Positions 379-7,999 of a stretch of 22,168 nt of DNA are shown here, piece by piece. The number at the start of each line of letters is the position of its first letter. Position 1 is the first letter of the stretch. Both the position numbers and the translations under genes were made by a program. The notes under the pieces were generated by a model, which was not told where the DNA came from, made no database searches, and was given only the letters and a program-made list of their open reading frames with translations. Source of the DNA: Desulfobacterales bacterium (GTDB lineage Bacteria; Desulfobacterota; Desulfobacteria; Desulfobacterales; JAHEIW01); NCBI GenBank assembly GCA_030145015.1, contig JAQYWI010000085.1, forward strand, positions 1 to 22,168, read 5' to 3'.

Positions 379-876
379 CTAGTCTTTCACAATTTTTTTA
401 TAGGCGGCAAAAGCCAGAAGACCGCCGGCGATCCCGCCTCCGGCCTGGATCAGGTTGGGAATAATTTCTGATACGGCTCCCTGGAGGCCGATGTTGGGCA
501 TAAATGCTTCCGCGATAAAGTAGCATGCAACCATAGAAGCGCCGCCCAGCAAGAGCAAAAGCCAGCGGCTAAATTTCTGCCGGCCCGATGCCAGAGCACA
601 CAATCCGCCCTCAGCGCCCTTGGCGACTAACGTAATTGGCGCAAACATGCCGAATCCGCCGAGGATGTCCGCCAAGGCAGAGCCAATACCGCCTGCTCCC
701 GCACCCCACCAGAAATTTCTTTGCCGGGTCAGGCTTCCCAATACCAGACCGGAAAATACGACGGCGACGTCTCCAAAATTGAAATATCCCCGGCTGGGCA
801 GCGGAATCCTGATAAAAAGCGTTATCAGGGCAACTACCACCGTTAGTGCGATAAAAGCAATTTTAATATTTTTCAT
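379..876 (-). CDS. ECF transporter S component (substrate-binding membrane subunit)
   Basis: A 165-residue membrane protein with about five hydrophobic helices. It shows the pattern of ECF-type S components (riboflavin-S-component-like families): IPLPSRGYFNFGD at 24-36, GSALAD at 65-70 and KGAEGG at 86-91. Such proteins bind a vitamin or precursor in the membrane and work with a T component and ABC ATPases. Its ATG overlaps the stop of the upstream gene as ATGA, with GAGG 7 nt before it, so it is probably translationally coupled. It is the last gene of a four-gene cassette. The substrate cannot be read from the sequence. A thiamine precursor is inferred from the TPP-riboswitch-controlled thiZXY genes upstream on the same strand. 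Family call good, substrate weak. Confidence 0.8.
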   Translation of the reverse strand: MKNIKIAFIALTVVVALITLFIRIPLPSRGYFNFGDVAVVFSGLVLGSLTRQRNFWWGAGAGGIGSALADILGGFGMFAPITLVAKGAEGGLCALASGRQKFSRWLLLLLGGASMVACYFIAEAFMPNIGLQGAVSEIIPNLIQAGGGIAGGLLAFAAYKKIVKD

Positions 877-1478
877 TTGTTGGCCTCGTATAAATGTAGA
901 TACCGGTTTTTTAGCAATCGATTTGAATTTTCAATTTCTTCATAAAGGTACAAATACAGAGCGATTATGAGGCAGGCATATTTTTTTAGTGCATATTTTA
1001 TGTTGCTTCCGGATTTTAATCCCGAATAGGTGTTCAGATACCAGGAAAACCGGCGCAATATTTTTTCACCTTTTGAGAAGGCCGACTTTATTGTAATTAA
1101 ATCAACCCGTTTTTTCATTGAAATTGGGAGGTTGAGAATATCGAGGTACGTAATATAACTCAACACGATTTTTAAAAAAATCAGTGAGCTGGGAAACACG
1201 AAGCATTTAATAAGCGTATCCTCTAACCAATCCTGCCTGCCGAACAGTCGGGTGAAGTGAAAAATCAGCCCGAAAATAAATAAAGTCAACACAAACGGAA
1301 AACAGAATTTCAGCAGGGAAATCGTTTCCTGGAGCGAAAATCGCAACGTATTCCACCCAATTATGCCTATAAAAACGACCAGTTGAATTGCGATTTGATC
1401 ATAAAAAGGGCCGAAAACAAAAAGCCAAAAAAAAGAGAGTATGAGCATGAATATGATGCCGAGTTTAAAAACGACCAT
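873..1478 (-). CDS. Probable ECF transporter T component (divergent)
   Basis: A 201-residue protein with hydrophobic helices at about 5-25, 28-45, 55-78 and 90-112. A long basic stretch follows at about 117-155, then another hydrophobic segment at 168-180, and a basic tail containing RLLKNRYLHLY. This layout (membrane helices, then basic coupling helices with Arg near the end) fits the EcfT/CbiQ family, but the classical Ala-Arg-Gly motifs are not clear. The start lies 2 nt after the stop of the ATPase-like gene, and the end overlaps the S-component start by 4 nt. T components link the S component to the ATPases. The call rests largely on position between an ATPase and an S component. It could be an unrelated membrane protein. 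Confidence 0.55.
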   Translation of the reverse strand: MVVFKLGIIFMLILSFFWLFVFGPFYDQIAIQLVVFIGIIGWNTLRFSLQETISLLKFCFPFVLTLFIFGLIFHFTRLFGRQDWLEDTLIKCFVFPSSLIFLKIVLSYITYLDILNLPISMKKRVDLITIKSAFSKGEKILRRFSWYLNTYSGLKSGSNIKYALKKYACLIIALYLYLYEEIENSNRLLKNRYLHLYEANK

Positions 1479-1480
1479 GT

Positions 1481-2011
1481 TTATTCTTTCTTTACCCTGA
1501 TATTCTTAATGTGACCATCAAAATCAATCAGGTCAAACTTTATGTTGCAGGCCCGATATTTATCGGCAAGAACCTCCGATTGGCCGTAGCCAAGATGGGT
1601 AACCATAATGAAAGTCCGGATAAACGCATCGCTCCAATCAAAGATAAATCCATAATCAGGAAAATATTTATCAAATTCATCCAAAATAAAAACAGTTGCA
1701 GATCGGCTTTGATTAATCCACAGCCTTAAAAGCTCAACTTCATTATTGTCGGACACTTTGATTCCCTGGACCGCCAGCAGCGCTCTCAGGGTATACAGTT
1801 GCGTTCGAATATCCTGACCGATATATATATATTGGATTTTGTCGGTCTTAAGGGCCGGGATGATTATTTCCTCCAGGAAGGATGTCTTTCCAAAGCCATT
1901 GCCCCCTCTGAAATAAAAACAATCGTCGCTGTTTTTAAAATCGAGATCGTCGGTTAGGCTAAAGTTCAGGCCCCGCTTTTCTAAACGATATGTGCCCCTT
2001 TTTATTTGCAT
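1481..2011 (-). CDS. ABC ATPase-like half: Walker A and B present, signature absent
   Basis: A 176-residue nucleotide-binding domain of ABC type, short for the family (ECF ATPases are usually 220-290). Numbered from the ATG at 2011, it has Walker A GGNGFGKTS (36-44), a Q-loop candidate GQD (64-66), Walker B VFILDE (107-112) and an H-loop MVTH (136-139). Only about 40 residues separate the Q-loop from Walker B, and no LSGGQ-type signature lies between them, so most of the helical subdomain is missing. An upstream ATG at 2068 would add 19 residues and overlap the previous gene. I prefer 2011, 4 nt after that gene's stop, because it matches the usual first strand of the fold. The neighbour at 2016-2444 carries the missing signature. 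Frameshift decay of a longer ATPase is the alternative. Confidence 0.65.
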   Translation of the reverse strand: MQIKRGTYRLEKRGLNFSLTDDLDFKNSDDCFYFRGGNGFGKTSFLEEIIIPALKTDKIQYIYIGQDIRTQLYTLRALLAVQGIKVSDNNEVELLRLWINQSRSATVFILDEFDKYFPDYGFIFDWSDAFIRTFIMVTHLGYGQSEVLADKYRACNIKFDLIDFDGHIKNIRVKKE

Positions 2012-2015
2012 GCCT

Positions 2016-2444
2016 TCAAAAAATCTCTTGAATGCGGTCTTTTTTATCTGTGAACAGCCTGGTATCATAGGTCGAACGCATTTCTGCGAATTTGCTGAAT
2101 AATTTCAATCGGTTGTCGTCACTTAGTGAGTTCAGGACATTATTCAACAACAATTTTAGACCATGGATTTTTTGGCTGCGAATCAGCGCCAGGGTGAGAA
2201 GACAGCCCAGGATTGCTTTTTGGCCGCCGGAGTAGGTATCGAAATCCTTGTCTGCGGTTACGTCGTATATGCTAAACTCTTGCGCCTCCCGCATAATTTC
2301 CGCCACCAGAGCGGGGTCTGCCCTGCGCTGCAGCAGCCAAACTTCCTCGCGGATGGAAGATGATATAAACAGATGATTAAATTCAAGAATCAGGAAACCG
2401 TCGCCGTATCTGTTCAAGATTGCGTCTAAATTATATATGGCCAT
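2016..2444 (-). CDS. ABC ATPase-like half: signature present, Walker A absent, Walker B degenerate
   Basis: A 142-residue fragment-like ABC domain that starts near the Q-loop region (GDGFLILEFNHLF, 14-26). It has a good signature motif YSGGQK (71-76) with the following helix. In place of Walker B it reads LLLNNVLNSLS (98-108), so both the Mg-binding Asp and the catalytic Glu are changed to Asn. There is no P-loop. An in-frame TGA three codons upstream of the ATG at 2444 rules out a longer form in this frame. The hairpin element at 2486-2693 begins 42 bp upstream, so insertion or deletion could have removed the 5' part of an ancestral gene. With the next gene it would supply the two complementary halves of one ATP site. 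It could equally be a pseudogene remnant. Confidence 0.55.
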   Translation of the reverse strand: MAIYNLDAILNRYGDGFLILEFNHLFISSSIREEVWLLQRRADPALVAEIMREAQEFSIYDVTADKDFDTYSGGQKAILGCLLTLALIRSQKIHGLKLLLNNVLNSLSDDNRLKLFSKFAEMRSTYDTRLFTDKKDRIQEIF

Positions 2445-2740: not shown

Positions 2741-3688
2741 TCAATGGTCAGTTGACCACAAAACTGTTTTTACATCTACGGCCTTTTCTATCAGCCCATA
2801 CTTAAAAGCAAAATCGGCAAAATGCTGCCATCGGTCTGCATCTATCTTCTGGTCGTGGGCATAATACGGCAGGGTTAGCTTGAAGGCGTCGGTTTCGGTC
2901 CTGCGGTCTGCCTCCGGTACTTCCTCAAGATAGTATCGCAACGCTTTTTGGGGGTTTGCACGAACATAAGCGATGGCGCGATCGATTGTCTTTTTGAATG
3001 TCGTCAGGGCCGCATGATTTTTTTTCATTGATTTCTTACTCGTGACAAAAATTAATTCATCATAATCAGGTATCCCCCACTTCTCCAGTTCGAAATATCC
3101 GACTTCATAGCCCCTGTTGGTCATGGTGACGGTTTCATAAGTTTTAAATGGTCCCATGACCGCGTCCACTTTTCCGGCCGTCAATGATTGGACGATGGAA
3201 AAGCCAACATTTACGGGTGTATACTGCTCAATGTGGTTGAGTTTGGCAAATGCCTCCAAAAGAATGTCCATGAGGCCGGGTACCGTGTATCCGATCTTCT
3301 TACCTTCCAAATCTTTAGGAACTTTTATGCCTTTGTCTTTCATGAACAATAGCGTCGTTAATGGATGCTCTATCAAACGTCCAAACGCCACCACCTCAAG
3401 ACCTCTGGCAGCGGCAATGATGGTTTGGGGTTCATAAGAAATGGCGATGTCCACTTTCCCGGCTGCGGCAAGTTTGAGCGCGTCTGCCGTTTCGGAAGGG
3501 CTGATGATGTTGATTTCCAAGCCCTCTTGAGAAAAATAACCCTGATTGCGGGCCACGTAAATGGGTAGATGGTCAACATTAGGGAACCAATCGAGGATCA
3601 GGGTGAAGGTTTGGGTTGCATATATGGAGGAGGTCCAGGTTAAGATAAGACAAACCGACAGAAAAATATGAAACGATATTTTCTTCAT
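2741..3688 (-). CDS. thiY: Periplasmic HMP/thiamine-precursor binding protein (NMT1/ThiY-like)
   Basis: A 315-residue secreted binding protein. Residues 1-24 are a signal peptide (basic start, hydrophobic core, likely cleavage after YA). The mature part begins with LDWFPNVDHLPIYVAR (about 32-47) followed by GYFSQEGLEI, the hallmark opening of the NMT1/THI5-like family that binds the pyrimidine moiety of thiamine or its breakdown products. Later segments AAGKVDIAISYEP and GKVDAVMGP match the two-lobed SsuA/ThiY fold. It is the third gene after the TPP riboswitch, 36 bp behind thiX, with GAGG before the ATG. It would capture the ligand and deliver it to ThiX. The exact ligand (HMP or formylaminopyrimidine) is inferred. 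Confidence 0.88.
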   Translation of the reverse strand: MKKISFHIFLSVCLILTWTSSIYATQTFTLILDWFPNVDHLPIYVARNQGYFSQEGLEINIISPSETADALKLAAAGKVDIAISYEPQTIIAAARGLEVVAFGRLIEHPLTTLLFMKDKGIKVPKDLEGKKIGYTVPGLMDILLEAFAKLNHIEQYTPVNVGFSIVQSLTAGKVDAVMGPFKTYETVTMTNRGYEVGYFELEKWGIPDYDELIFVTSKKSMKKNHAALTTFKKTIDRAIAYVRANPQKALRYYLEEVPEADRRTETDAFKLTLPYYAHDQKIDADRWQHFADFAFKYGLIEKAVDVKTVLWSTDH

Positions 3689-3724: not shown

Positions 3725-4468
3725 TTATACTTGTTTCCAGGTGATAACCCTTTTTTCCAGAAACCCGACAAATACCCACATGCTCACACCCATCATAGAT
3801 AGCCACAGAATTGCGGCAAACACGAGGTCGACTCTGAGCCTGGCATTGGCCTGAATCATCAGGTAACCGAGTCCCTGTTGGGCGCCGACCCATTCACCGA
3901 TGACGGCCCCGATAGTGGCCACAGAAACCCCTACCTTAAGTCCGGCAAAAAAATGAGGCAGTGCCCATTTCCAATATAGCAGACGCATGGCCTTCCAGAA
4001 TCCGGCTCCCATCAGATGAAAGAGAACCCGATATTCTTGATCGCAGCTTTTAAATCCCTCCAGCAAGTTTACCGTGATCGGGAAAAAGATGATGATTGCA
4101 GCCATCAGCACCTTGCTGGCGATGCCATAGCCCAGCCACACAACCAATAAAGGGGCAATCGCAAAAACCGGAACCGCTTGAGAGGCCACCAAAAATGGTG
4201 CGATCGTATTTTCCACCGAAGGATGAGCAAACATGACAACCGAAAGTGGTACGGCCACAGCCAGTGAAATCAGTATCCCGATCAGCACTTCCAATGCCGT
4301 TATTCCGGCATGGGGAAGCAGGAGGCCGGCCTGAGATACCGCCACGCTGATGATTTGAGTCGGCATGGGTAGAATAAAATCGGGAATCGCAAAGCCCCTG
4401 CAGGCCATTTCCCAAGCGGCCAGTATCGTAAACGCCCCTGCAAAGGCAATTAGTCTAGAGTATTTCAT
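3725..4468 (-). CDS. thiX: ABC transporter permease for thiamine precursor (ThiX-like)
   Basis: A 247-residue inner-membrane permease of the BPD_transp_1 type with about six helices. The EAA-type coupling loop is visible at about 139-168 (EGFKSCDQEYRVLFHLMGAG followed by the WALP segment), and the family's GEWVGAQQGLGYLM stretch follows at about 191-204. This is the arrangement of SsuC/TauC/ThiX permeases. Its start lies inside the end of thiZ (14-bp overlap), so the two are translationally coupled, and thiY follows. It forms the channel for the ligand brought by the binding protein. Family certain; the thiamine-precursor role comes from the TPP riboswitch and the NMT1-like partner. Confidence 0.88.
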   Translation of the reverse strand: MKYSRLIAFAGAFTILAAWEMACRGFAIPDFILPMPTQIISVAVSQAGLLLPHAGITALEVLIGILISLAVAVPLSVVMFAHPSVENTIAPFLVASQAVPVFAIAPLLVVWLGYGIASKVLMAAIIIFFPITVNLLEGFKSCDQEYRVLFHLMGAGFWKAMRLLYWKWALPHFFAGLKVGVSVATIGAVIGEWVGAQQGLGYLMIQANARLRVDLVFAAILWLSMMGVSMWVFVGFLEKRVITWKQV

Positions 4469-5201
4469 TTTTCAGCTCATTCTGTAAACGGCTTAGCACA
4501 TGTTCCTTAATTTCAATTAACTCCGGATCGTTCAGGCGACGGGGTTTGGGACCGCTCAAATTAAAGTGCTCCAAAATTCTCATCGGCAATTGACCCATGA
4601 CGAGCACTTCGTCCGCCAGCATAAGGGCTTCATCAATATTGTGGGTGATCATTAAGATACTTTTGTTGAATTCGCTTTGAAGCAAAAGAAGCAAAGACTG
4701 CAGACTGGTACGGGTGATCGCATCAAGAGCTGAAAGCGGTTCGTCCAGCAAAACGAGTTCATGCTCAAACATTAGGGTTCGTACCAGGGCACAGCGCTGA
4801 CGCATGCCGCCGGAAGTTTCTGCGGGCAGGTAATTTTCAAAACCTTCCAATCCCAGACGCTTAAAAAGTCTCTGTGCCTTGGTATTGGAAATGGTCATAT
4901 CCGAGCCGGCAATCGTTGCCGGAAGCAGCGCATTATCGAGCAAAGTAAACCAGGGAAGCAATAAATCCTTTTGCTGCATATAGGCAGCCTTTTTTCCCAA
5001 GTGCGGCAAGCTTTTTTCAAGCCAATAAATTTCTCCGCATTCTCGCGGCAAAACTCCGGTAAGTACGTCAAACAGAGTGCTTTTGCCGCAACCGGATGGA
5101 CCAATTAAAATCGTAAAGCCTCTGTGTGGGACGGTGAGGTTGAAATTTTCCAATACAACGAGGTCGCCGAAATGTTTGCACAGGCCTGAAATTTTCAGCA
5201 T
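4455..5201 (-). CDS. thiZ: ABC transporter ATPase for thiamine precursor (ThiZ-like)
   Basis: A 248-residue cytoplasmic ATPase of the SsuB/TauB/ThiZ group that powers the importer. Motifs are Walker A GPSGCGKST (34-42), Q-loop YMQQKD (74-79), signature TSGGM (129-133), Walker B LVLLDE (149-154) with D-loop SALD, and H-loop H187 in ITHNIDEA. The signature has Thr in place of the usual first Leu, a mild variation. It is the first gene after the TPP riboswitch. Its ribosome-binding site GGAGGA can pair with an upstream TCCTCC, so translation is probably the controlled step. The start at 5201 has GGAGGAAC spaced about 7 nt. High confidence in the ATPase, good confidence in its pathway. Confidence 0.88.
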   Translation of the reverse strand: MLKISGLCKHFGDLVVLENFNLTVPHRGFTILIGPSGCGKSTLFDVLTGVLPRECGEIYWLEKSLPHLGKKAAYMQQKDLLLPWFTLLDNALLPATIAGSDMTISNTKAQRLFKRLGLEGFENYLPAETSGGMRQRCALVRTLMFEHELVLLDEPLSALDAITRTSLQSLLLLLQSEFNKSILMITHNIDEALMLADEVLVMGQLPMRILEHFNLSGPKPRRLNDPELIEIKEHVLSRLQNELKNEIL

Positions 5202-5237: not shown

Positions 5238-5264
5238 TGAGGAAGGAGTACCGTGTTTATCATA

Positions 5265-5358
5265 TCAACTTTCCTGCGCCGGCATGATCCGGATCAGGTT
5301 CCAGGGGTCGAGGCGCGAAGCCTCCTCTCAGCCGATTTATTTCGGCTCCCCCAGTGAC
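5265..5358 (-). ncRNA. TPP riboswitch (thi-box)
   Basis: On the minus strand the conserved thi-box blocks appear in order: CACTGGGGGAGCC, then CTGAGAGGAGG, then GACCCCTGGAACCTGATC, then CGGATCATGCCGGCGCAGGA. The helix around the GGCTTCGCGCC segment is also visible. This is the complete TPP aptamer, apart from small differences (TGGAACCTGAT for TTGAACCTGAT; GATCATGCC for GGTTAATGCC). It lies about 60 nt before thiZ and would shut off uptake when intracellular thiamine pyrophosphate is high. The call is secure from the primary sequence alone. Confidence 0.97.
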
Positions 5359-5368
5359 TTTGGTTTAA

Positions 5369-5425: not shown

Positions 5426-5434
5426 TTATCAAAC

Positions 5435-5580
5435 TAGAACCCATCTCAAAAATGTGGATTAGGGTTCAGGGCAAGGCGCGGGGCGGTGAAAAAGCGGAGC
5501 ATACACATTAGTATGTGAGCATTATGAGCCGACCCGCAACGCCGCCCAGGCACTTAGACGCATTTTTGAGATGGGTTCTA
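5435..5580. repeat. 146-bp palindromic element with 20-bp perfect terminal inverted repeats
   Basis: The left end TAGAACCCATCTCAAAAATG (5435-5454) is the exact reverse complement of the right end (5561-5580). Inside, GGCGCGGGGCGG (about 5475-5486) opposes CGCAACGCCGCC, and a CATAC/GTATG hairpin lies at the centre (5510-5515 region). The whole can fold back on itself. No ORF is present. The right end overlaps the last codon of the ABC-F gene and supplies its TAG stop. The layout suggests a non-autonomous mobile element (MITE), and it may also act as a transcription stop between the two minus-strand units. Confidence 0.85.
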
Positions 5581-7726: not shown

Positions 7727-7746
7727 CAACCCGAACTTCAGGTATT

Positions 7747-7999
7747 ACCTGAATTTTGCACGAGTCGGAGGCTTTCATCTGCAAGCGGAGCCCTTTACCG
7801 TAATAAGATCAGATGCTTCATCCCGCAAAGCGGGGGCATTTAAGGCAGAGGCTATAGTGAACTATGCCTCGGCCTTAATAACGCAGCAGATGGAAGCCTC
7901 CGGCTCGCCGCGTTGTCTCCAGGGTGAAAAGTAATGAGATAAAATGATTGACATCCTTTTTAGATAATCCCAACTTCTCATTAATTTTCATGCAAGATT
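7747..7999. repeat. Hairpin-rich element, copy 2 (MITE-like, about 253 bp)
   Basis: This matches the element at 2486-2693 nearly base for base over its two outer parts. It has about 50 extra bases (about 7785-7834), including a CCCGC/GCGGG hairpin, between the left outer arm and the inner palindrome (7840-7878). The left end ACCTGAATTTTGCA is intact; at the right end only TGCAAGATT remains. The left end is preceded by TTCAGGT, making TTCAGGTATTACCTGAA (7737-7753), which resembles an abutting second tip. It lies in the predicted transcribed leader of mlaE. Confidence 0.8.

Follow-up and report, generated by a model that had tools for sequence, protein, structure and literature searches.

How can a transporter be energised by two ATPase genes, each of which lacks a different part of the ATP-binding cassette (ABC) motif set? 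The question is raised by a four-gene cassette on contig JAQYWI010000085.1 of a Desulfobacterales bacterium (assembly GCA_030145015.1, forward-strand positions 1 to 22,168), the whole 22,168-nucleotide (nt) stretch being referred to here as the window. All four genes lie on the minus strand, in the order signature half, Walker half, T and S; the two halves are the incomplete ATPases, T is a putative coupling membrane protein, and S belongs to a family of substrate components of energy-coupling factor (ECF) transporters. We propose, with a probability of roughly 70%, that the first two genes encode complementary subunits of a reduced ABC heterodimer with a single ATP site, and that this heterodimer is the split, shortened counterpart of a one-site chain of ~440 residues found in related genomes. 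Most likely, this engine drives an ECF-like importer. The four genes of the cassette are:

2016..2444, minus strand: signature half, 142 amino acids (aa); Q-loop-like LEFNHLF, TYSGGQK signature, degenerate Walker B LLLNN
1481..2011, minus strand: Walker half, 176 aa; Walker A GGNGFGKTS, Q-loop GQD, Walker B ILDEF, H-loop VTH
873..1478, minus strand: putative T (coupling) membrane protein, 201 aa; conserved, with hydrophobic segments; no curated family
379..876, minus strand: S component, PF07155 (ECF-ribofla_trS), 165 aa; Pfam score 72.5 bits against a cut-off of 26.7

The genes are tightly packed, with a 4-nt gap between the two halves, a 2-nt gap between the Walker half and T, and a 4-nt overlap between T and S. 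The Walker-half frame stays open upstream to 2068, and ATG 2011 is its likely start because 105 of the 120 best-listed homologues are 176 aa long. When rechecked on the window, the coordinates, motifs and tight spacing given in a first-pass annotation of this DNA all proved to be as described.

The motifs are divided cleanly between the two proteins. In an ABC site one subunit contributes Walker A/B, Q-loop and H-loop and its partner the signature, as set out in an excerpt of PMC7756269. Homologue searches at E<=1e-3 gave 309 and 322 proteins for the two halves, and it is the best 120 of each to which the following counts refer. The signature half is without Walker A, Walker B acids and H-loop; its signature is found in 120/120 relatives, with T-Y-S-G-G-Q invariant across the 120 rows, and the pattern G....GK[ST] in none. 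At its two Walker B acid positions there is never D or E, the first being N, S, I or Y and the second N, H or K. The Walker half, conversely, has Walker A, Q-loop, Walker B (LDE) and H-loop in order within one subunit and is without a signature. Its Walker A pattern is present in 120/120 relatives and [LYFVIM]SGG[QEM] in 0/120, while the Walker A Lys-Thr, Q66, D111, E112 and H139 are invariant in every row. Both halves are of near-constant length. Neither, therefore, carries the full motif set that each nucleotide-binding domain (NBD) has where there are two composite sites, and the only signature available is the YSGGQ of the partner subunit (120/120), which is predicted to contact the ATP held by the Walker half. 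The complementary half-ATPases of the first-pass annotation, one with YSGGQK and no Walker A, the other with Walker A/B and H-loop and no signature, are thus confirmed, and the division is a kept feature of the family. In profile scans both halves fall below every curated Pfam and NCBIfam cut-off, and homologues of both, where the source gives a name, are nearly always called 'hypothetical protein'.

Could the division be an artefact? If an ordinary full-length ATPase had been broken by a sequencing or assembly error, the T run in the junction (minus strand, ATTTTTTGA) would be a possible place for it, the 3' end of the signature half at 2016-2035 reading ATT TTT TGA with the run just ahead of the stop. 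The first-pass annotation had proposed looking for the same split pair in related genomes, and it is present in eight assemblies including the window's. Since the junctions of these differ from -20 to +4 nt, the split is not a sequencing frameshift. The missing motifs, moreover, are absent from the 120 listed homologues of each half, and not just out of frame. The recurring split in seven other loci and the absent motifs together refute an error, to which we give practically no weight. In principle the T run might allow a +1 slip that leads on into the Walker half. A fusion made by conserved +1 frameshifting at the TTTTTT-TGA junction is excluded, as the gaps range from -20 to +4 nt across the eight loci.

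The pair does not behave as a decaying gene either. Among 242 genomes drawn from the order, seven contain the Walker half, and the same seven contain T and the signature half; four of these were already known from an earlier scan, and in each genome the three genes adjoin on one contig. Close S orthologues (74-95% identity) occur in the same seven, in one case on a different contig, and the order signature-Walker-T-S is kept in the window and seven related loci as far as the contigs extend. When the window is compared with five relatives, the ratio of nonsynonymous to synonymous substitution rates (dN/dS) comes to 0.11-0.22 for the signature half, 0.10-0.18 for the Walker half and 0.08-0.13 for T; for S, likewise against five relatives, it is 0.04-0.10. 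These ratios are rough, several dS values exceeding 1.5, and they come from five of seven window comparisons, the two further relatives being saturated at synonymous sites and giving no ratio for the halves and T. Even so, the halves are not near the value of 1 that the first-pass annotation had named as speaking against its reading. Its argument against random decay is upheld: the division is found in the best 120 homologues of each half, dN/dS is ~0.1-0.2, and the genes co-occur in the same 7 of 242 genomes. Motif conservation together with dN/dS rules out a pseudogene.

A related possibility is that the halves are relics and that S and T are powered by a canonical EcfA encoded elsewhere. 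All four genomes searched do contain CbiQ/EcfT genes, several of which have complete ATPases next to them. Relics would, however, hardly show a dN/dS of 0.1-0.2, catalytic residues invariant in 120/120 listed rows, near-fixed lengths, and confinement to exactly the seven genomes that hold this specific T, and we consider the idea very improbable. The ordinary CbiQ/EcfT genes with complete ATPases at L006-L010 are in the same genomes, so that the one-site system coexists with two-site ECF modules. The four named genomes with the split cassette are metagenome-assembled genomes called Desulfobacterales or 'Deltaproteobacteria', and no homologue was found in the viral contigs searched. The tree labels the organism of split locus L002 Myxococcota, by its public name; the genome search places L002 in the same order as G003, and the label is probably outdated 'Deltaproteobacteria' naming.

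Does a full-length form of this ATPase exist? The first-pass annotation had recognised that relatives encoding one full-length ATPase with intact motifs would speak against its reading. Single-chain relatives do exist, but their motifs are not intact. Relatives of S occur in 25 of the 242 genomes, the 18 beyond the seven split ones being distant, and in 17 of these 18 the same cassette as S contains a single ATPase gene of 425-476 aa (~440), with a membrane protein between ATPase and S (aligned for seven loci, L061-L064, L066, L068 and L070). In all 17 fused ATPases the sole signature, of LSGGE type, lies in the N half and the sole Walker A in the C half. The N half has S-P at the place of the Walker B acids, and the signature position of the C half reads LLQAK, LLELK and similar, with no signature in any of the 17. 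This one-chain asymmetry mirrors the window pair, signature half first and Walker half second. Because the fused chain is itself asymmetric, it extends the one-site reading and does not refute it; given the same asymmetry in fused relatives, the window's pair is best read as a one-site ABC engine that has been split and shortened.

The fused C half is, as judged from its sequence, a bona fide ABC domain where tested. It exceeds the Pfam ABC_tran cut-off in both members scanned (n = 2), and it matches canonical EcfA-like proteins of related genomes with an hhalign probability of 98.6%. The best NCBIfam match of the fused ATPase of L063 is TIGR04521 (ECF_ATPase_2) at 7.5e-14, which is below that model's own cut-off, and that of L068 is ModF. 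The link from the window proteins to the fused chain is a modest one, the signature half matching the fused N half and the Walker half the fused C half at 44% each, at the expected places. Against canonical EcfA the profile matches are 76% for the signature half and 90%, over 28 columns, for the Walker half, again at the expected places. In an AlphaFold2 (AF2) model of the joined pair, with a predicted local distance difference test (pLDDT) score of 77.1, each half matches ABC chains among others; structural matches that cover both halves have root-mean-square deviations of 14-27 Å, and the alignment of the signature half to full NBDs starts only at about residue 80 of the latter.

These comparisons also bear on another explanation, in which the Walker half is a stand-alone P-loop nucleoside triphosphatase (AAA/STAND or RecA-like, perhaps self-associating) and the signature half a separate regulator or scaffold, with no common ATP site. 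Cdc6/Orc1 and KaiC-like structural matches score like the ABC chains, and the Walker half has weak Pfam matches to NACHT/AAA models. The fused relatives nevertheless join both halves in one chain in 17/17 cases, the C half of those tested is clearly an ABC ATPase, SGGQ is kept in 120/120 listed signature-half homologues, and the two halves strictly co-occur, making a stand-alone enzyme unlikely. We know of no use for an SGGQ motif without a partner Walker A.

How, then, might a single site drive transport? In the one-site heterodimer that we favour, the 176-aa subunit would hold the ATP with its Walker A/B, Q-loop and H-loop, and the 142-aa subunit would cap it with its SGGQ signature. The opposite site is missing, since both the Walker A and the signature that it would need are lacking. 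As the single site closes and opens, it would move the adjacent T, so that S could load and release, as in ECF importers. Association of the two halves, ATP hydrolysis at their common site, coupling through T and transport of a thiamine precursor or another vitamin by S are all inferred parts of this scheme. The earlier suggestion that the pair could build exactly one working site is borne out as far as the conserved complementary motifs and the equally asymmetric fused relatives go; that such a site works is a prediction from sequence. The number of sites per transporter might differ from one if the subunits formed a higher oligomer, for example with two copies of each half round one T, or shared a third ATPase. 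Splitting a chain frees its stoichiometry. A fused chain with one Walker A and one signature, on the other hand, fits one site per chain if its halves pair within, and we regard a higher oligomer as distinctly unlikely.

Is the cassette an ECF transporter? The S protein clearly belongs to an ECF family, exceeding the PF07155 cut-off, and two ATPase parts (A, A') are present, as two genes or as one chain with two ABC-like parts (17/17), each part being incomplete. Other features call for caution over an ECF assignment. The label T derives only from position and hydrophobicity; the window T gives no Pfam match to CbiQ/EcfT (PF02361) and an hhalign probability of 0.1%. EcfT proteins carry Ala-Arg-Gly motifs, and an AXXXA motif in S helix 1 is tied to docking on ECF modules, according to an excerpt of PMC11109136. 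None of the eight split-type T proteins has an A-R-[GSAC] motif, although a looser X-Arg-X is possible, and a strict A-x-x-x-A is absent from the first 34 residues of six of the seven split-type S proteins tested, the window's included. One of five fused-type T proteins has A-R-[GSAC], and the five canonical EcfT of these genomes, scanned with a wider pattern, all have ARC or ARA; the strict A-x-x-x-A is present in three of nine fused-type S tested. No hhalign match was found between fused-type T and canonical EcfT, nor between the window T and fused-type T. The AF2 model of T is of low confidence (pLDDT 50.7), with Foldseek matches only at E 9 or worse and none at E<=0.001. We call the system ECF-like, and not a proven ECF transporter, because its T is unrecognisable as EcfT and the window S is without AXXXA. 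Several close T homologues are named 'signal transduction histidine kinase' by their source, a name for which the 201-204-aa sequences give no support.

The chromosomal setting ties split and fused forms together. The same two neighbour genes, presumably acyl-CoA-hydrolase-like and YhhN-like, flank the split cassette L002 and the fused cassette L074. The eight split-type S form one side of a branch with support 100/99 when 25 S proteins are placed in a tree without an outgroup. Given the shared neighbours and the S tree, it is simplest to regard the split and the fused cassettes as counterparts within one system, either of which may be the older form. Between their common flanks the whole cassettes of L002 and L074 have opposite orientations, which suggests in-place inversion or replacement. 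A gene that we take to be ABC-F-like lies within a few genes of the cassette in 5/8 split loci (window, L002, L003, L004, L019) and 5/17 fused loci (L065, L067, L070, L072, L075), many contigs being too short to tell. A divergent gene adjoins the fused cassettes L061, L063 and L064, whose S is of the TTGYFNIGD type; in L063 and L064 we take it to be a GntR-like helix-turn-helix protein (KLPSVRKLH.RTGLSITTVYQSLIELEKRG), possibly the regulator of those cassettes.

What is transported? Upstream of the window cassette lie the following features:

2741..3688, minus strand: NMT1/THI5-like binding protein, PF09084 (E 1e-60), which we take to be ThiY-like
3725..4468, minus strand: ABC permease, PF00528, presumably ThiX-like
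4455..5201, minus strand: ordinary complete ABC ATPase, PF00005, presumably ThiZ-like
5254..5362, minus strand (the cassette's strand): thiamine pyrophosphate (TPP) riboswitch, RF00059, 80.8 bits, upstream of the ThiZ-like gene

Genes that we assume to be ThiZ/X/Y-like are likewise upstream of the cassette in L019, where the ThiY-like gene lies only 81 nt away from the signature half, and a presumed CytX-like permease adjoins the cassette in L001, L003, L004 and L020. Under these names, thiamine-precursor genes adjoin the cassette in six of the eight split loci, and TPP riboswitches are found in four (window, L019, L003, L004). A thiamine precursor is a reasonable guess for the substrate of S, and no more. 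One copy of a repeated element (2485-2688) separates the signature half from the ThiY-like gene, and the other (7746-7999) lies beside an MlaE-like gene; the two copies are 98% identical over 40 nt and 93% identical over 165 nt, and the element looks like a small mobile or palindromic element. Another stretch of ~145 nt, at about 5434-5580, has by eye inverted copies of ~20 nt at its ends (agaacccatctcaaaaatg / catttttgagatgggttct) and resembles a miniature inverted-repeat transposable element.

Taken more widely, the data may describe an unnamed ECF-like importer branch in one order of Desulfobacterales-type bacteria, with a single ATP site by design. In one lineage its NBD dimer would have been cut into 142 + 176 residues, perhaps the smallest ABC engine known, with a coupling membrane protein unrelated in sequence to EcfT. 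We put this wider proposal at even odds. Mutants are the usual means of asking whether ABC importers need one or two ATP sites. In this system one site seems to have been lost entirely in evolution while the rest was kept under selection, in split and fused forms, so that the need for two sites becomes directly testable on a small pair with a natural fused counterpart for comparison. The pair also offers structural work a minimal, separable signature subunit and Walker subunit, from a transporter branch present in public metagenomes mostly as 'hypothetical protein'.

How does this engine compare with known ones? In ECF modules each of the two ATPase subunits binds Mg-ATP and engages a signature motif, and closing of the ATPase dimer shifts the EcfT coupling helices and expels the S protein (excerpt of PMC10368641). 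Like ECF transporters (EcfA, EcfA', EcfT, EcfS; groups I and II), the cassette sets a PF07155 S-type protein beside membrane protein and ATPase genes, and its fused counterpart has a C half that matches ECF ATPase profiles. Unlike them, each ATPase here is without a different part of the motifs, and T is without detectable EcfT homology or an Ala-Arg-Gly motif. The ECF ATPase of YkoD type has two complete ABC domains in one chain. The fused ~440-aa relatives resemble it in having two ATPase parts per polypeptide, and differ in that all have one signature and one Walker A.

The closest parallel in motif asymmetry is provided by Pdr5-type ABC transporters (fungal PDR, with the related ABCG5/G8, TAP and TM287/288). 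In Pdr5, as described in an excerpt of PMC8421411, NBD1 carries VSGGE whereas NBD2 has the mutated signature LNVEQ, and N334 replaces the Walker B glutamate, which shows that an exporter can work with a single catalytic site of this type. Pdr5 keeps its folds intact, however, and its degenerate NBD keeps the Walker A region and still binds ATP, whereas Walker A is absent from all 120 listed homologues of the signature half. The window pair comprises small, separate subunits in an importer-like cassette; one has no Walker A region and the other no signature region, so that the unused parts are gone. The first-pass annotation had thought the architecture undescribed in ECF systems. In the open-licence literature, covered as titles and abstract beginnings of the papers listed, no importer, of ECF type or otherwise, is described whose ATPase dimer has a single Walker A and a single signature, in split or in fused form; functional one-site asymmetry is known from Pdr5. 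The asymmetry as such is therefore not new, which tempers the claim to novelty. What is new, compared with Pdr5, is the physical division of the one-site engine between two subunits and its ECF-like setting.
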